Assembly: GCA_022361135.1 (NCBI GenBank)
Contig: JAKSBM010000386.1
Span: forward strand, 1 to 5,860
Direction of reading: 5' to 3'
Source of the DNA: Desulfobacterales bacterium
GTDB lineage: Bacteria > Desulfobacterota > Desulfobacteria > Desulfobacterales > Desulfobacteraceae
DNA length: 5,860 nt
Every line of letters begins with the position of its first letter. Position 1 is the first letter of the stretch. The notes beneath the pieces were generated by a model. It made no database searches and had not been told where the DNA came from. It worked only from the letters and a program-made list of their open reading frames with translations. Of this stretch, positions 1 to 5,860 are shown piece after piece. A program made the translations under genes and the position numbers.

Positions 1-181
1 CTTTAACTACAGCGTTTTCAACAGTGGGGGCGCCCAGGGTGAGTTCCTCACCATCGGAATACAAGAGGACGTCATTGAATTCAACTTCGGAACCCTCGGT
101 GCCTTCCAGTTTTTCAACCTTCAGGATCTGGTTCTCTTGAACCTTGTATTGTTTCCCACCGGTTCTGATTACTGCGTACAT
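1..181 (-). CDS. rplU: 50S ribosomal protein L21, N-terminal 60 residues (partial)
   Basis: L21 is a structural protein of the large ribosomal subunit that binds 23S rRNA. The start codon is at 181-179 on the minus strand and the frame is open to the left edge, so about 60 of the usual roughly 103 residues are visible. The N-terminus MYAVIRTGGKQYKV is the characteristic L21 opening, and the later segment LGAPTVENAVV is also typical. A good Shine-Dalgarno sequence, AAGGAG, precedes the ATG by about eight bases, and a near-consensus promoter lies further upstream. In most bacteria rplU is followed by rpmA and often obgE; these would lie off the left edge. The gene is divergent from the plus-strand operon starting at 469. 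Identification is secure; only the C-terminus is missing because of the window boundary. Confidence 0.97.
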   Translation of the reverse strand, partial: MYAVIRTGGKQYKVQENQILKVEKLEGTEGSEVEFNDVLLYSDGEELTLGAPTVENAVVK

Positions 182-468: not shown

Positions 469-1779
469 ATGATGGATAAAAATTTAAAACAGCCGGCCGG
501 ACTCACCGGCCGAACCCCCGCAGAAGGCCAAGTCGATTCCCAGGGGATCCTTGAAGTGGATCTGACACAGATCCCTTCCCGGGGTATTCCCCTGATAAGT
601 GGGGATGGGTCCATTGGTATTATGGTGGGAACGCCCTTGCCCGGGGCCGAATTGATGCAGTCCGCCCATGGATTGTGCCTGGAAAAATTAATGGATGCAT
701 TGCCCCCGGACCAGGTTCTGGGCATCACCTTGATCCCCGGAGGGGAAGAACCCGGGGAAGATGTTCTGGAACTCCTGGCCGCCTGGGTGGAAAAGGGGCT
801 TGCCCTGGTCCATTGGCAATGCCGGGATATTCCCCCTGCCTCCTTTCAAAGATTTCTCTGGAAAATCGCCCGCCTGGGCATCTGGAATCATTTCAGCCTC
901 ACCGGTCTTTTATCCCCCGGGGAGCAGACTGACACTGCCACGGCGGCCTGGACGGGATTTGCCATGGAGAATCCTTATATTATCCATTCCTATGGGGATG
1001 GGGAAAATGGGGCCAGGGGGCAGGTGGCCCGGTATGGTGATACCCGCCCCCTTCCCGGCATTCCCCTTTGGCAGACATTGGACGGATGCCGGGGGATCCT
1101 GGCGGCCCTGGCTGGAAAGGAGGGGCGGAAATCGGCCAAGGCTTTGGCTGCCCTGCGTTGGGATGAAGATATGAAAAGGGCCACTCCCCTTGGGACGGAC
1201 ATGGTGTTTGCCTTCCAATCCCCCGGTGATTTGCCGGAAGGATATCTGGAAGAGATCTGTCGCATGGTGGCGGCGGGCGGTTCCGTGGATATCACCCATG
1301 TGAAGGCCAATTTAAAGCGGGCCCATAAAATTGCATATGCCTTGGAAAACGGGGTCATCGTGGGCAACTCCAGCCTTAAGCATCCCCGTCCCGAATTCTT
1401 TGACTACCTGCGCCGGGTCACCGGCCTGGATTTCACGGGTTTTGTGGAGCGGGGGTATACCTCGGTGCGGCCGGAATACCGGGCCTTTGGGGTGGGGAAA
1501 AAATTGTTGGAAGGATTGACCTCCAGGGCCGGGGAATTCAAGGTTTTTTCCCTCATATCCGAGGATAATCTGGCCACCCAGAAGATTGCCCTGCGCAATC
1601 GAACTCGGAAGTTGCTTACCTATACCAGTGAACGATCGGGAAAGGCCATGGGCCTCTGGATGCCCGAATCCATGGTTCCCACAATGGATGACCAATGGCA
1701 GGAAGCCCTTCACACCTTTAATCGGGGTGAATTTCAGCCCGGCATCCCCGGGGGCGACCGGGAAGGAGGCGGGGAATGA
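469..1779 (+). CDS. GNAT-family acyltransferase with a large unrecognised N-terminal region
   Basis: This encodes 436 residues and is the first gene of the operon. The C-terminal part (about residues 256-400) looks like a GNAT fold: a beta-strand ending in TSV at 331-333 runs into RPEYRAFGVGKKL (334-346), the acetyl-CoA pyrophosphate-binding loop, followed by a helix and a strand (FKVFSLISEDN). GNAT enzymes move an acyl group from acyl-CoA, or in some families an aminoacyl group from tRNA, to an amine. Residues 1-255 match no family I recognise; they appear globular and soluble, with no signal peptide or membrane segment. The start at 469 is preferred because GGAAG lies seven bases upstream and DNA before it is AT-rich; ATG codons at 442 and 472 are alternatives. 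The stop overlaps the next start (ATGA), implying translational coupling to the ATP-grasp ligase. The substrate is unknown, and a fused or degenerate double-GNAT arrangement is possible. Confidence 0.72.
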   Translation: MMDKNLKQPAGLTGRTPAEGQVDSQGILEVDLTQIPSRGIPLISGDGSIGIMVGTPLPGAELMQSAHGLCLEKLMDALPPDQVLGITLIPGGEEPGEDVLELLAAWVEKGLALVHWQCRDIPPASFQRFLWKIARLGIWNHFSLTGLLSPGEQTDTATAAWTGFAMENPYIIHSYGDGENGARGQVARYGDTRPLPGIPLWQTLDGCRGILAALAGKEGRKSAKALAALRWDEDMKRATPLGTDMVFAFQSPGDLPEGYLEEICRMVAAGGSVDITHVKANLKRAHKIAYALENGVIVGNSSLKHPRPEFFDYLRRVTGLDFTGFVERGYTSVRPEYRAFGVGKKLLEGLTSRAGEFKVFSLISEDNLATQKIALRNRTRKLLTYTSERSGKAMGLWMPESMVPTMDDQWQEALHTFNRGEFQPGIPGGDREGGGE

Positions 1780-2645
1780 TCATCGGAATTCTCACCGTGA
1801 ACGGACCGGAGTTCCACCCCAACGGGCGCCTCATGGCTGCTGCCAAAGCCCGGGGCCATGGGGTTGTATTGATGGATCCCTACGGCCTCATGCCCACAAC
1901 GGGAAGGGGGGATTTCCTTGACCCTCTTCCCCACGGGGTCTTACCCCGCCAGGGGTCGCCCATGGGGGAATACGGATTTGTGATTCTCCGGGAGTTGGAG
2001 CGCCGGGGGGTACCCTTAATTAATGGGGTCCGGGGGGTGACCCTGGCCCGGCATCAATACCTGACCCTCCAGGCATTGGAGGGGGCGGGATTGCCCGTGC
2101 CCCGCTCCTGTTTCATCAGTCGGTCCCGGGAAATGGAAGATGCGGCATCCCATTTGGGGGGCTGGCCCCTGGTTTTGAAACATCCCACCGGCATGGGGGG
2201 CGACGGGGTGGTCTGCATGGATGATTTGCCCCGGTCCCTGGCCTGGCTTGAAACGCAATTGGTCCATAAGCAGGGGGTGGTGGTCCAGGAATATATTCCC
2301 CCGGTCGGCCGGATGGATTTGCGGATTCTGGTGGTGGGGGACCGCGTGGTGGGGGCCATGGCATTGACCCCATCGGACGGGGAATTCCGTGCCAATGTCC
2401 ACCAGAAGGGACGGGCCGAATCCATCCCATTGGACCCGGCCTGGGAAACCATGGCCCTCCAGGCGGCAAAGGCCTGTTGCCTGGACATTGCCGGGGTGGA
2501 CATGATGGTTTCCGCCCAGGGGCGCCCCATGGTTTCCGAAGTGAACTATTCCCCGGGATTCAGGGGATTGGAAGCGGCCACGGGGCTGGATATTGCCGGA
2601 ATGATCGTGGATCATGCCATTTCCTGCATTGAAGCAAACACCTAA
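1776..2645 (+). CDS. RimK/LysX-type ATP-grasp carboxylate-amine ligase
   Basis: The 289 residues are close to the length of E. coli RimK (300). These enzymes phosphorylate a carboxylate with ATP and join it to an amine, making an amide or peptide bond; RimK adds glutamate to ribosomal protein S6, and LysX/ArgX act on an amino-group carrier protein. Visible landmarks are VLPRQG (55-60), the ATP-binding lysine in PLVLK (K135) followed by the glycine-rich loop GMGGDG, VQEYI (170-174), DLRILVVGD (181-189), EFRANVH (203-209), AGVDMM (239-244), and the metal-binding EVNYSPG (E255, N257) ending in ATGLDIAG. One oddity is ARHQ (91-94), where RimK has RDK and an ATP-contacting lysine. A strong AAGGAGG lies six bases before the start, which overlaps the preceding stop. 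The family is secure; the substrate, and so any gene name, is not. Confidence 0.92.
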   Translation: MIIGILTVNGPEFHPNGRLMAAAKARGHGVVLMDPYGLMPTTGRGDFLDPLPHGVLPRQGSPMGEYGFVILRELERRGVPLINGVRGVTLARHQYLTLQALEGAGLPVPRSCFISRSREMEDAASHLGGWPLVLKHPTGMGGDGVVCMDDLPRSLAWLETQLVHKQGVVVQEYIPPVGRMDLRILVVGDRVVGAMALTPSDGEFRANVHQKGRAESIPLDPAWETMALQAAKACCLDIAGVDMMVSAQGRPMVSEVNYSPGFRGLEAATGLDIAGMIVDHAISCIEANT

Positions 2646-2667
2646 AATGGGGATTGTCCCCCTTTGG

Positions 2668-2698
2668 GTGGGCCATCCGGGGCGCCTGGATGGCTCAC
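2668..2698 (+). other. Hairpin between the ligase and PP-loop genes, abutting the ribosome-binding site
   Basis: GTGGGCCATCC (2668-2678) pairs with GGATGGCTCAC (2688-2698) as an 11-bp stem with one G-U pair and a nine-base loop. The Shine-Dalgarno AGGAG of the next gene (2699-2703) begins at the very next base, and the ATG is at 2712. No U-tract follows, so it is unlikely to be a normal intrinsic terminator. It could stabilise or help process the mRNA, or tune translation of the third gene by limiting ribosome access. A shorter hairpin (GGGGA/TCCCC, 2649-2661) lies just upstream. The pairing is directly visible; the function is inferred. Confidence 0.55.
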
Positions 2699-2711
2699 AG
2701 GAGAAAATAGA

Positions 2712-3848
2712 ATGAAAATTGACCAGATACAGCGGAGCCGGGATGGGGAGTTTTATGCATTGACCGCCCGGGTTCGTTTTGAAAATAGTGATGCCCCGGA
2801 AAAGGAGGTCTTCATTAAAACCCCCCTGGCCCATGGCGAGGGCTTCACGGCCAATGCCGATGCCTTTCTCACGGGTTGTCTTTTGCCCGCCCTTCACCTG
2901 GGGGAGGAGCGGATTTTCCTGGACGGCGAGGTCTGTCCCTTTTTAAAGGAAGGGCTTGAGACGGCCATGGGCCTGCTCCATCACTGGACCGGGGGGCGGT
3001 ACACCCCCATTCCCATTGAGGCCGGAGTCCGGGGAGAGATCCACATGCCCGACCCGCCCCGGGCCGGCATGGTCATGTCCGGGGGCATGGATTCCCTGGC
3101 CGCCCTGCATCTGAATCGTCTCAATTATCCCCCGGAGCATCCTGCATATGTCAAAGATGGATTTTTTATCCATGGCTTCGACATCGGGGGGGTGGTTGAG
3201 CGGGGGGCCAAATACCATGTATACGACCGGGCCGCCGAAGCCATTGGAAAAATCTGCCGGGATGCCGGTCTGGAACTCATTCCGGTTTATACCAATATCC
3301 GCCACCTTTGCGACGAAAGGGAACTCTGGCTGGACAGCTTTTTCGGTGCCGTTCTCGGGGCCGTGGCCCATGCCTTTTCAGGCCGGATCAACCTGATGTT
3401 CATCGGTTCTTCCTATGATATTCCCCACCTCCACCCCTGTGGCTCCCATCCCCTGTTGGATCCGGAGTATTCCAGCCTTGGGGTGCGCATCCGCCACCGG
3501 GACTATGCCCTGTCCCGGCTGGAGAAAATAGAGGTGGTCTCCCAATGGGATACGGCATTCCAGAATTTCCGGGTCTGCCTGGCCAATGTCCCGGATCGGC
3601 TGAATTGCGGAAAATGCGAAAAATGCGTCCGCACCATGACCGAGCTCACGGCCCTGGGCCTTCTGGATAAGACCACGGCCTTTGTGGAGGACAAGGTTCT
3701 GCCCGAACACTTGGAGCCCTACGACATCACCATCCGGGTCCGTCCACCCTTTTATTTCCCCCTGATTCCGTTGTTGCGGCAGCGGGGGCGGGATGACATG
3801 GCCGACTTGATTGAATTCAAGCTGAAGGATGTGCCCCTCCCGGGATAG
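2712..3848 (+). CDS. QueC-like PP-loop ATPase with zinc-binding cysteine cluster
   Basis: This encodes 378 residues. The PP-loop signature SGGMDS (123-128) binds ATP pyrophosphate in enzymes that adenylate a carboxylate or carbonyl. Near the C-terminus, C289 and the CGKCEKC cluster (C299, C302, C305) form the four-cysteine zinc site typical of QueC, the 7-cyano-7-deazaguanine synthase. GSSYDIPH and GSHPLLDP (about 232-251) are typical of QueC-like relatives. True QueC is only about 220-230 residues; here roughly 115 extra N-terminal residues of unknown role precede the PP-loop, and a tail follows the zinc site. No queuosine genes (queD, queE, folE) are adjacent. QueC-like proteins also occur in other settings, including the Qat and type IV CBASS defence systems, but their partner genes are absent. 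The start at 2712 is chosen for AGGAG eight bases upstream; a TTG at 2664 is in frame but lacks a site. The enzyme probably activates an acid in the same pathway as the two upstream genes. Confidence 0.86.
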   Translation: MKIDQIQRSRDGEFYALTARVRFENSDAPEKEVFIKTPLAHGEGFTANADAFLTGCLLPALHLGEERIFLDGEVCPFLKEGLETAMGLLHHWTGGRYTPIPIEAGVRGEIHMPDPPRAGMVMSGGMDSLAALHLNRLNYPPEHPAYVKDGFFIHGFDIGGVVERGAKYHVYDRAAEAIGKICRDAGLELIPVYTNIRHLCDERELWLDSFFGAVLGAVAHAFSGRINLMFIGSSYDIPHLHPCGSHPLLDPEYSSLGVRIRHRDYALSRLEKIEVVSQWDTAFQNFRVCLANVPDRLNCGKCEKCVRTMTELTALGLLDKTTAFVEDKVLPEHLEPYDITIRVRPPFYFPLIPLLRQRGRDDMADLIEFKLKDVPLPG

Positions 3849-3867
3849 GCGGGGGATTTGAAACAAA

Positions 3868-3907
3868 GAAACAAGGCCCGGATCCGTGGGGATCCGGGCC
3901 TTGTTTT
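3868..3907. terminator. Strong intrinsic terminator, probably bidirectional
   Basis: The arm 3869-3885 pairs without mismatch with 3890-3906, a 17-bp stem closed by the four-base loop GTGG; a further G-U pair is possible at 3868/3907. The core is GGCCCGGATCC with its complement. On the plus strand the stem runs into TTTTATTTT (3904-3912), a classic U-tract ending the operon 20 bases after its last stop codon. On the minus strand the stem is followed by the T-rich TTCTTTGTTTC, so the same element can also end transcription of the convergent HEAT/cNMP gene. Confidence 0.93.
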
Positions 3908-3913
3908 ATTTTG

Positions 3914-3949
3914 GGGATGGGCACCACAGCCTTGGGCTGCCCCCATCCC
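3914..3949. other. Second, branched hairpin between the convergent genes
   Basis: GGGATGGG (3914-3921) pairs with CCCATCCC (3942-3949), and inside it CAGCC (3927-3931) pairs with GGCTG (3935-3939) around a TTG loop, with a small asymmetric internal loop between the stems. It lies downstream of the main terminator on the plus strand and just upstream of it for transcripts from the minus gene. No U-tract follows on either strand. It may protect the 3' end of the minus-strand mRNA from exonucleases or back up termination. The structure is visible; its role is inferred. Confidence 0.5.
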
Positions 3950-3986: not shown

Positions 3987-5860
3987 TCATCCTTCAGTGT
4001 TCTGCACCCGGGCGTGGAGATGGCGGATGCGCTGGCTGAGCACCGAGCAGATCTGGAGGGCGATGCGGGGGAACTCCATGGCGGTTTCCTTGAACTCCTG
4101 TTTGTGGAGGATGAGGAAGCGGCAGGGGGTGACGGTGCGGATGGTGGCCGACCGGGGGGCATTGTCGATGAGGGCCATTTCCCCAAAGGCATTTCCCCCT
4201 TCCATGTGGTCGATGATCTCTTCCCGTCCGTCCTTGGTTTCCATGATCACGGCCACCTTGCCTTGGATGATGAGGAATACGGTTTCCCCCAGGGAGTCCT
4301 GCTTGATTACGGTGCTTTCTTCCGGGTAGGCCAACTCCTTGGTCACCCCGGCAATGGCAGCCAGTTCCGCTGCACTGAGTCCTGAAAATATGTCGATTTC
4401 CCGGAGGAGGAGGATTTTTTCGCCCAGGCTGATTTCCGGGCTCTGGATGCCTTCGGCCGGGTCCGGGGTTTGAACTTTTTCCGGGCGGGTTTTTTCCTTG
4501 GCTGATGTCATCTGAGCTTCCTTTAAAATAATGGGGTTAAGGGTGGTTTCCTGCTGGGTGATTCGATCCGGAATTTTTGCCAGTCCTGGGTTTTCACGGA
4601 CCATACCCAGGGCCATGACCACATCCACCCAGTCCTCGGACTCCAGAAGCTGGGCAACCGCATCCCTGCCATCGGGTTCGAATTTGGGAATCTTGGCCAC
4701 TTTTTTGCCGTCGTTCAATGCCACCTCCGTGGTGGGGCTTTCCAAAAGGGGGAGCATGGCATTGAAGGTTTTCCGGTCCAGGATGTCGGAGACCAGTTCG
4801 ATGGCATTGGCCCGTTGCCGGGTGTCCGGGGAAAAGATTCCCCGCCAGGCCGTTTGCATCCGGCCGGTCTGGTCATGGATGGCCAAAACCCGGATCACAT
4901 TTTCCAGGACCACCTCTTTTTTCTCTTCCAGATGTTCAATGGTGAGTTTGATCATGGGGGTCTGGGGAAGGCCGGACAGGGTCTGGGACATGGCCAGAAA
5001 GCCATAGCTTTTGTCCAAGCTTTCCTTGGCAAAGAAGAGGACCTCCAGTTCCTTGATGTCCTGTTCCTCCAATAGTTCGAACAGGCCCCTGCGGGTCCGG
5101 GTGGAGGGAATCCCCAGGGACTCCACCAAAAGCCGGTTGTTCTGGTACTCGGCATTTTTGATTTTTTCCCGGGCAAATTCATGGAGGGTGTCCGAGGGGC
5201 TGCCCATGAGCTGGATGGCCTTTTTCAAGGTGGCTTCGTCGTTGATTTCCAAGGCGTCCAGGGCGGCCATCTGGGTGGCCTTGTCCCTATGGCTGAGGTA
5301 GGAGAAAACCACGGTGTTCAGCTCCCGGGCGCCCAGACGGGAAAGGGCAATGATGATATCCGGGATGATGGGGGCGTTCTCCGGTCGATCCAGGAGGGCC
5401 AGCAGGATATCAATATAGGAGTGGCGGTTGCTCAAACCGGCGCTGATGACGCCGGATTGGCGGAGTTTCACATCTCCATTCTCCAGCCATTGGTCGATGC
5501 GTTCCTGGTGGTCCGCGGGATTGCGATAAAAATAACAGGCCCCTGCAAATCCCCGGACAACGGGATGGGTGTGGGTGAGGTATGCTTCCAGTTCCATCCC
5601 CCTTGAGACCTCCAACCGGTTCTGGCAGACCAGTTTGAGGATGGCAATGGTCAATTCCGGTTCCTTGGGATCCAGGAAGGGGATCAGTCGTGCTGCGGCG
5701 GATTTCCGGGAGCCCGGGGTGATCATTTTGATCAAGGTGATGCGGGTGTCCGCATCCTGCCGGGGCAGGGCCTCCAGGATGAGCCGATCCATTTCCTTGG
5801 GGGAAAAGTTTTTAATGAGTTTGGCATACCAGACGGCATCCTCCCCCCGGGCCTTGAGGA
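3987..5860 (-). CDS. HEAT-repeat protein with C-terminal cyclic-nucleotide-binding domain (5' end outside window)
   Basis: The frame is open from the right edge to the TGA at 3989-3987, giving 623 complete codons; the true start is off-window, since the in-frame ATG at 5792 is preceded by at least 22 open codons in the same style. Most of the visible part (about 5860-4570) is a series of amphipathic helical pairs of HEAT/armadillo type, which usually form protein-binding solenoids. A proline- and charge-rich linker (about 4565-4430) leads to a cNMP-binding domain (about 4427-3990). Its phosphate-binding cassette FGEMALIDNAPRSAT (from 4187) keeps the glutamate and the arginine (codon 4154-4152) that hold the cyclic phosphate, so ligand binding is plausible. 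No helix-turn-helix follows, so it is not a CRP-like regulator. Some bacterial proteins place HEAT repeats and a cNMP domain behind an Npt-type nucleotide transporter or MFS-like membrane region; whether that is true here depends on off-window sequence. Confidence 0.88.
   Translation of the reverse strand, partial: LKARGEDAVWYAKLIKNFSPKEMDRLILEALPRQDADTRITLIKMITPGSRKSAAARLIPFLDPKEPELTIAILKLVCQNRLEVSRGMELEAYLTHTHPVVRGFAGACYFYRNPADHQERIDQWLENGDVKLRQSGVISAGLSNRHSYIDILLALLDRPENAPIIPDIIIALSRLGARELNTVVFSYLSHRDKATQMAALDALEINDEATLKKAIQLMGSPSDTLHEFAREKIKNAEYQNNRLLVESLGIPSTRTRRGLFELLEEQDIKELEVLFFAKESLDKSYGFLAMSQTLSGLPQTPMIKLTIEHLEEKKEVVLENVIRVLAIHDQTGRMQTAWRGIFSPDTRQRANAIELVSDILDRKTFNAMLPLLESPTTEVALNDGKKVAKIPKFEPDGRDAVAQLLESEDWVDVVMALGMVRENPGLAKIPDRITQQETTLNPIILKEAQMTSAKEKTRPEKVQTPDPAEGIQSPEISLGEKILLLREIDIFSGLSAAELAAIAGVTKELAYPEESTVIKQDSLGETVFLIIQGKVAVIMETKDGREEIIDHMEGGNAFGEMALIDNAPRSATIRTVTPCRFLILHKQEFKETAMEFPRIALQICSVLSQRIRHLHARVQNTEG

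Follow-up and report, generated by a model that had tools for sequence, protein, structure and literature searches.

A conserved GNAT, ATP-grasp and PP-loop gene trio of Desulfobacterota as a possible part of a larger module for a capped peptide-like metabolite

What do three adjoining genes for enzymes of different acyl-transfer families make together? This question is raised by a stretch of 5,860 nucleotides (nt) from Desulfobacterales bacterium (GenBank assembly GCA_022361135.1, contig JAKSBM010000386.1), referred to below as the window, which encodes a GNAT protein, a RimK-family ATP-grasp ligase and a PP-loop enzyme. The reading that we prefer, with a probability of roughly 0.45, is that a larger conserved module, of which this trio forms the biosynthetic part, would assemble and cap a small peptide-like metabolite. 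The genes of the trio are as follows (lengths in amino acids, aa).

469-1779, plus strand: GNAT protein P0001, 436 aa, with an N-terminal remnant and a C-terminal GNAT domain
1776-2645, plus strand: RimK-family ATP-grasp ligase P0002, 289 aa, starting within the ATGA overlap 1776-1779
2699-2703, plus strand: AGGAG, a ribosome-binding-like site 8 nt 5' of the ATG at 2712 of the PP-loop gene, by reading of the sequence
2712-3848, plus strand: PP-loop enzyme P0003, 378 aa; its family is unnamed and carries a QueC-type zinc motif

An earlier note on this DNA had described three genes in the same direction with an ATGA overlap and a short spacer, and this was borne out by the open reading frames (ORFs) and by reading of the sequence. 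The GNAT and ATP-grasp genes share the ATGA, and the spacer between the ATP-grasp and PP-loop genes is 66 nt long and contains the AGGAG.

Conservation of the trio was examined by a scan of GTDB genomes for the PP-loop gene, which gave 48 loci, nearly all of them from Desulfobacterales, Desulfobacteraceae, Desulfotignum, Desulfobacula or other deltaproteobacterial genomes. The GNAT, ATP-grasp and PP-loop genes were found together in the same order and on the same strand at 39 of these loci, in many genera and with variable flanks, which is the outcome that the note had named as support for a functional module. Gaps did not exceed 405 nt in 37 of the 39 complete loci; in the other two (L034 and L037), 3.8-3.9 kb separate the GNAT and ATP-grasp genes, and this insert, which divides the trio, encodes a sigma-54 activator and a multihaem cytochrome. 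Among the nine incomplete loci, six (L011, L019, L021, L031, L033 and L046) lie no more than 214 nt from the upstream contig end, two (L027 and L036) carry the GNAT gene elsewhere in the genome, on a different contig, and the ninth, L045, is a decayed locus. Pairwise distances computed for each protein of the trio are correlated with one another (r 0.86-0.91 over 703-903 pairs), as joint inheritance would give. The three distinct amide or acyl-transfer chemistries that had been noticed in the window recur in one conserved gene order.

Flanking ORFs were then clustered and tallied with representatives. A protein of about 1070 aa, consisting in relatives of a TLC ATP/ADP-transporter-like membrane half, HEAT repeats and a cyclic-nucleotide (cNMP)-binding domain, occurs at 36 of the 48 loci, downstream and convergent at 22 and upstream at 14. 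We call it the membrane/HEAT/cNMP protein, and the window holds its C-terminal part.

3987-5858, minus strand: membrane/HEAT/cNMP protein, C-terminal part with HEAT repeats and a cNMP-binding domain (Pfam HEAT_2 and cNMP_binding), running past the end of the window

The remark that no exporter was visible was accordingly an effect of the window, since this neighbour belongs to a protein with a transporter-like membrane half in relatives. The other neighbours at the 48 loci were FGE/SUMF1-like proteins (32), nucleotide-cyclase-domain proteins (26), a GshB-like ATP-grasp protein (19), an OppA-like protein (11) and a radical-SAM-like protein (9). The last of these scored under the Pfam cut-off, yet its three cluster cysteines were present. 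At L037 (9141-10397), L036 (9173-10399) and L044 (4109-5338), the gene directly 3' of the PP-loop gene and on its strand codes for a radical-SAM-like protein that carries CYWxxCxYC and is about 410 aa long.

The joint distribution of five families was determined in 147 genomes of the class of Desulfatitalea alkaliphila (G001), with one profile for each family. The PP-loop family was found in 28 genomes, GNAT in 28, RimK-like in 29, membrane/HEAT/cNMP in 30 and GshB-like in 28; all five were present in 26 of the 31 genomes carrying any, the partial ones being G036, G110, G111, G141 and G147. The membrane/HEAT/cNMP protein was present in 27 of the 28 PP-loop genomes. Weaker PP-loop matches (G011, G078, G082 and G124), RimK-like matches with E from 1e-69 to 1e-75 (G040, G081, G097, G104 and G122) and weaker membrane-protein matches (G015, G017, G023, G040 and G060) had been dropped before counting. 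Fisher's test of the PP-loop against the GshB-like family gave 3e-27, which is no proper probability because the 147 genomes are related. In 27 genomes the GshB-like gene could be placed relative to the PP-loop gene: the distance was at most 25 kb in 16 and 0.36-2.4 Mb on the same contig in 4, and the genes were on different contigs in 7, where in draft assemblies they may still lie near each other. The radical-SAM-like family was found in 13 of the 147 genomes, all of them PP-loop positive, and this is the pattern that optional tailoring would give. In G036, the genome of the decayed locus L045, the PP-loop gene has in-frame stops and the GNAT gene is in fragments; no RimK-like, GshB-like or membrane/HEAT/cNMP match was found in this genome, whose completeness is not established. 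It looks as if the whole module decays together. These results contradict the possibility that the genes are rarely found together, for genomes as well as for loci. The view of the trio as a self-contained unit has to be given up, because the membrane/HEAT/cNMP and GshB-like families share its distribution.

We next describe the individual proteins; the alignments were made from chosen subsets of the loci (A1-A4 with 31, 23, 25 and 14 rows; A5, A6, A7 and A9 with 12, 5, 5 and 8). P0002 passed the RimK-family model TIGR00768 (164.3 bits, cut-off 143.4), its nearest solved relatives were RimK-type ligases (PDB 7qyr, E 2.2e-43), and the SPG..G.E motif was kept in the alignment with 7qyr. By this model and this motif it resembles the RimK family alpha-L-glutamate ligases (RimK, MptN, CofF and LysX), but it falls far under the equivalog models of three of them. 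Its assignment as RimK, the ribosomal protein S6 ligase (NF007764, 141.2 bits against a cut-off of 331), as MptN (116 against 350) or as LysX (112 against 276) was rejected.

The GshB-like ATP-grasp protein, represented by that of L010, resembles glutathione synthetase GshB in that it comes near the cut-off of NF003573 (265.3 of 272 bits) and matches both GSH-S domains. It differs in scoring just under that cut-off and further under that of TIGR01380 (241.1 of 299 bits), and on these scores its assignment as glutathione synthetase was rejected.

Searches with P0003 at E≤0.1 matched nothing in Pfam, NCBIfam or PADLOC. Two motifs characterize it.

3078-3095, plus strand: SGGMDS, the ATP-binding PP-loop, residues 123-128, from the alignment of 31 sequences
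3576-3626, plus strand: zinc motif C289-x9-C299-xx-C302-xx-C305, from alignments A1 and A8

Among the 31 sequences of A1, G124, G125, D127 and S128 were invariant and S123 nearly so. The four zinc-motif cysteines were invariant both in A1 and in A8 (11 sequences including distant homologs), and TNIRHLCDxR, PCGSHPxLD and NxRVCLANV formed other invariant blocks in the 31 sequences. No solved structure was related to P0003 by sequence; profile A1 gave only chance matches to the short zinc region of eS31. When the P0003 family was compared with eight QueC sequences by hhalign, E was 2e-4 to 1e-3 with a probability of 19-46%, in the zinc region only, and a forced global alignment with QueC gave no match. 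The assignment of P0003 as a PP-loop enzyme is based on SGGMDS, C-x9-CxxCxxC and this weak QueC profile match. Because the QueC alignment was weak and confined to the zinc region and the global alignment failed, we call P0003 QueC-like and not QueC; the QueC label itself was rejected, PF06508 being unmatched at E≤0.1 and NCBIfam giving no match.

The excerpts of PMC13329287 give C-x8-CxxCxxC as the QueC zinc motif and YxQxHxxE, VPxRN and YPDC as its substrate motifs. The spacing in P0003 is thus x9 versus x8 in QueC, and SGGMDS fits SGGxDS; the substrate motifs were not seen in P0003 or A1, by reading without a structure-based alignment. P0003 resembles the zinc enzymes QueC, Cap9 and QatC in SGGxDS, comes near them in the x9 zinc motif and in the zinc region aligning with QueC, and resembles QatC also in an extra N-terminal region, but differs from them in lacking a PF06508 match and the QueC substrate motifs and in having other gene neighbours. 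Membership in Qat or in type IV CBASS (cyclic-oligonucleotide-based antiphage signalling system) was rejected, none of the three trio proteins having a PADLOC match at E≤0.1. Two further cysteines of P0003, C200 and C243, were invariant in the 31 close sequences and were not kept in the distant homologs aligned; they may sit near the active site, which would hint at thiol chemistry.

GNAT relatives were found at 39 of the 48 loci. GNAT acyltransferases are defined by the acetyl-CoA-binding loop R/Q-x-x-G-x-G/A, and this loop is present in P0001 and kept in its relatives. The features of P0001 are as follows.

1465-1497, plus strand: acetyl-CoA-binding loop VRPEYRAFGVG of the GNAT domain, from conserved columns in 25 sequences
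550-1182, plus strand: what is left of the N-terminal region of the long GNAT form, from a tblastn search with the long form of L004, which matched window positions 550-1695

The GNAT score in Pfam was 16.5 bits, below the cut-off of 20.7; V333, P335, E336, Y337, R338, G341 and G343 were invariant or nearly so among the 25 sequences. Searches for solved relatives of the GNAT domain gave a best E of 0.17 (A4) and, to a response regulator, of 0.048 (A3). Four of the 39 homologs are cut by contig ends; the other 35 comprise 17 long (at least 560 aa), 8 intermediate (like P0001) and 10 stand-alone (174-210 aa) forms. The long relatives align to P0001 only from their residue ~270-390 onward, which means that about 300 N-terminal residues were lost in P0001.

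The N-terminal profile A5 of the long forms found radical SAM proteins of the same genomes, with E of 2.4e-7 in G115 and 2.9e-7 in G006 and more weakly in G001 and G005, and in hhalign it aligned with one such protein over 236 columns at a probability of 97%. That protein passes PF04055; we read its N-terminus as a B12-binding domain, PF02310 being unmatched. The radical-SAM cluster motif CX3-5CX2C was absent from all 39 GNAT homologs and from P0001, and a search for CX3CX2C alone had the same outcome, whereas active radical-SAM-like relatives carry CYWxxCxxC (CX4CX2C). Judging from the profile match and the missing cluster cysteines, the N-terminal region of the long forms is a degenerate radical-SAM relative, shortened or absent in some genomes. 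The stretch kept in P0001 lies behind the matched part, so its radical-SAM origin is deduced from position. What had been taken for a GNAT fusion is the eroded remainder of a protein that was once longer and had a radical-SAM-like N-terminus. Such stepwise erosion of a fused region is a small, clear case of a domain turning dispensable.

Genomes outside this class sample were also searched. Among 297 genomes drawn from the phylum, six matched the PP-loop profile at E≤1e-40, two of them (G370 and G410) from Geothermobacter. In Geothermobacter ehrlichii (G370, locus L106) and in G323 (L104), the membrane protein, GNAT, PP-loop and GshB-like genes are consecutive on one strand; in G. hydrogeniphilus (G410, L105), the first three lie on one strand and the GshB-like gene is divergent. 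A fusion of GNAT and membrane protein in G323 was considered and rejected, because the 1649-aa frame with GNAT differs from the frame of the membrane protein. No RimK-like gene was seen within 15-18 kb around these three modules, the remainder of the genomes not having been searched. The GshB-like gene may accordingly have been the earlier partner, with the RimK-like gene joining later.

The PP-loop gene also matched 21 plasmid records, and six of the eight inspected, from Nostoc, Gloeothece, Azospirillum, Gemmobacter, Priestia and Pseudobutyrivibrio, have it among glycan genes, the context in Azospirillum being one pyruvyl transferase. The context in Halorientalis is mixed, and the Paracoccus record (L066) has no polysaccharide genes nearby. 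These distant homologs are 20-39% identical to P0003 (A8), with the zinc cysteines kept and C200 and C243 replaced. On the Gemmobacter aquarius plasmid (L062:7872-11336), a PP-loop homolog, an ATP-grasp gene and a GNAT gene adjoin close to polysaccharide genes and may form a trio of like composition that arose independently. In G078 and G011, distant PP-loop genes occur as tandem pairs (L067:8153-10722 and L068:8893-11308) that adjoin, by eye, genes for ABC polysaccharide export, a sulfotransferase and a GMC oxidoreductase.

How might the five families work together? As far as family membership indicates their chemistry, the GshB-like and RimK-like ligases would ligate amino acids to a carboxylate by way of acyl phosphates with release of ADP, and the GNAT protein would use acyl-CoA to acylate an amino group. 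The PP-loop enzyme would activate the remaining carboxylate as an acyl adenylate, with release of AMP and pyrophosphate, and pass it to ammonia or an amine to form an amide end. The membrane/HEAT/cNMP protein may move or sense the product under cyclic-nucleotide control, and the radical-SAM-like enzyme may tailor it in a subset of genomes. Amidoligases of the PP-loop type are well precedented, Dph6 being an example in the excerpts of PMC3541065, and QueC-type enzymes can use amines besides ammonia according to the excerpts of PMC13279940.

A capped peptide-like metabolite would account for two ligases, a GNAT protein, a PP-loop enzyme and a transporter-like protein. It is favoured by the conserved order and strand of the trio, the near all-or-none distribution of the five families, the joint decay in G036, the runs in Geothermobacter and G323, the restriction of the radical-SAM-like family to PP-loop genomes and the correlated distances. 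In keeping with it, the GshB-like gene is retained even where it is distant from the PP-loop gene, there was no PADLOC match, and no conserved small ORF was found. The last result came from 471 small ORFs near the trio (loci and window), in which a precursor like that of a ribosomally synthesized and post-translationally modified peptide was sought and rejected: the clusters span at most four loci, and the largest are the ribosomal genes rplU/rpmA or overlaps of them. Several points weigh against a capped metabolite. Shared ancestry of the 147 genomes alone inflates co-occurrence, RimK itself is a protein modifier, and distant PP-loop homologs stand in surface-polysaccharide clusters without the other module genes. 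Furthermore, the relation of P0003 to QueC is weak, no ammonia-supplying glutaminase is encoded in the window, and the window holds only part of the module, with no GshB-like gene.

It is rather unlikely that the ligases instead tag a cellular protein or peptide. In that case the RimK-like ligase would extend a C-terminus by glutamate, and a small carboxylate would be coupled to an amine of the protein by the PP-loop enzyme, in the manner of Cap9 in type IV CBASS and of a proposal for QatC. A housekeeping protein would be a possible substrate. The closeness of P0002 to RimK-type ligases agrees with such a role, as does the lack of a small-molecule precursor encoded next to the trio; in the excerpts of two papers, QueC-family enzymes modify protein N-termini (PMC13279940, PMC13329287). 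However, the surroundings of the trio yielded neither a conserved small ORF nor a dedicated partner protein, the QueC, Cap9 and QatC models fail on P0003, and the GshB-like ligase and the transporter-like protein would be better suited to a small molecule. An envelope glycan or sugar as the target, the PP-loop enzyme amidating or amine-linking a sugar carboxylate while the ligases and the GNAT protein decorate a glycan or lipid-linked sugar, appears unlikely. The glycan contexts of the distant PP-loop relatives keep this explanation alive: in six plasmid records they lie amid glycosyltransferases, flippases or pyruvyl transferases, Gemmobacter has all three kinds of gene adjoining, and the tandem pairs are next to apparent polysaccharide-export genes. 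On the other hand, no glycosyltransferase family is among the neighbours common to at least four of the 48 loci, the two cysteines invariant in close sequences are replaced in the distant members inspected, and the Paracoccus record lacks polysaccharide genes nearby.

We consider it very improbable that the arrangement reflects synteny of one clade only, with the five genes co-inherited in a lineage and serving different pathways. All close loci are Desulfobacterota-like, the trio distances correlate as under vertical inheritance, and in G147 the membrane protein occurs alone, with none of the remaining four families. Nevertheless, the downstream-convergent and upstream placements of the membrane protein suggest that the genes were rearranged yet stayed neighbours; the GshB-like gene was kept at a distance, and Geothermobacter has the module too, in another gene order. 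There is scarcely any chance that P0003 serves deazaguanine chemistry or phage defence as a QueC/Cap9/QatC-type enzyme using 7-carboxy-7-deazaguanine. The PP-loop and the zinc motif come near those of QueC as given in the excerpts of PMC13329287, and the UniRef record of a Geothermobacter PP-loop homolog, among the matches listed in the protein searches (the best 120 of 895 and the best 120 of 199), is named 7-cyano-7-deazaguanine synthase. Against this stand the failed PF06508, NCBIfam and PADLOC searches, the substrate motifs not seen, the lack of any matched defence partner, and the absence of a canonical QueC match (no E better than 2e-6) in 4 of 11 module genomes, whose completeness is not established.

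Within the reading of a capped peptide-like metabolite, a variant that we regard as quite unlikely is that the product is a new, glutathione-like compound of low molecular weight in sulfate- and iron-reducing bacteria. The GshB-like and in part the RimK-like ligase would make a peptide, gamma- or alpha-linked, with cysteine or another small amino acid at its centre, the GNAT protein would acylate its amine and the QueC-like PP-loop enzyme would amidate its carboxylate, giving an acylated peptide amide. MshD likewise acylates the amine in mycothiol synthesis. The compound might be a thiol that carries sulfide or protects anaerobes mostly without detectable GCS2-type GshA, with its export or sensing tied to cyclic nucleotides through the membrane/HEAT/cNMP protein. 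Indeed, the GCS2 gamma-glutamylcysteine ligase family gave no match in 15 of 20 module genomes, the GshA family PF04262 not having been searched; the five genomes that carry a GCS2-family protein speak against a thiol or glutathione role.

Among known systems, the synthesis of N-acetylglutaminylglutamine amide (NAGGN) by AsnO and Ngg (PA3459-PA3461) is similar in that a GNAT activity, an ATP-grasp enzyme and a PP-loop amidotransferase give a capped peptide. By the name of its NCBIfam model, Ngg contains the ATP-grasp domain. That these three activities make the capped peptide NAGGN is described in the excerpts of PMC8070244. In our module, GNAT and ATP-grasp are separate proteins, and a GshB-like ligase and the membrane/HEAT/cNMP protein are added. 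Membership in the NAGGN system was rejected, as P0002 scored 27.2 bits with TIGR03103 against a cut-off of 569 and P0003 had no asparagine-synthase match; the proposed pathway would thus resemble NAGGN synthesis in its working, by way of other, non-homologous families. Uncharacterised operons with ATP-grasp and GNAT genes are also found in the GAK system and other amidoligase operons, and Iyer et al. are said to have described amidoligase operons including GAK-type systems in 2009. Membership of P0002 in the GAK system was rejected as well (49 bits with the GAK ATP-grasp model, cut-off 300). One paper reportedly deals with an N-acetyl sugar amidotransferase in lipopolysaccharide synthesis. No paper on this gene set was found in the openly licensed PMC literature, and none that assigns it to a pathway, which agrees with the earlier statement that no named pathway has this trio.

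If our reading is right, a conserved uncharacterised pathway extends across many uncultured and some cultured Desulfobacterota, and the carriers Geothermobacter and Desulfatitalea are growable. The PP-loop superfamily was recently shown to span from tRNA bases to protein conjugation; two ATP-grasp ligases and a GNAT protein working with a QueC-like PP-loop enzyme that no Pfam or NCBIfam model matches would add a new reaction to it. The strict joint distribution names the genes that knock-out and metabolomic studies could target.

Lastly, the flanks and signals of the window were examined. The six sigma-70-like sites in the window, against 2.9 ± 1.5 expected, are not clearly above chance, so the promoter candidate of the earlier note was not upheld; of that note as a whole, the conserved trio and the lack of a pathway stand, and the self-containment, the promoter, the exporter remark and the view of P0001 as a GNAT fusion were wrong or incomplete. 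An Rfam scan of the window gave zero matches. Two features complete the layout.

2-181, minus strand: start of rplU, in the upstream flank of the trio
3869-3906, strand unassigned: strong terminator-like hairpin between the convergent PP-loop and membrane/HEAT/cNMP genes

The hairpin region (3862-3915) has a folding energy of -37.1 kcal/mol with z -8.5, and none of 200 shuffled sequences was as stable. The hairpin behind the terminator proposed earlier is strong, and from its position between the two convergent genes it could end both.

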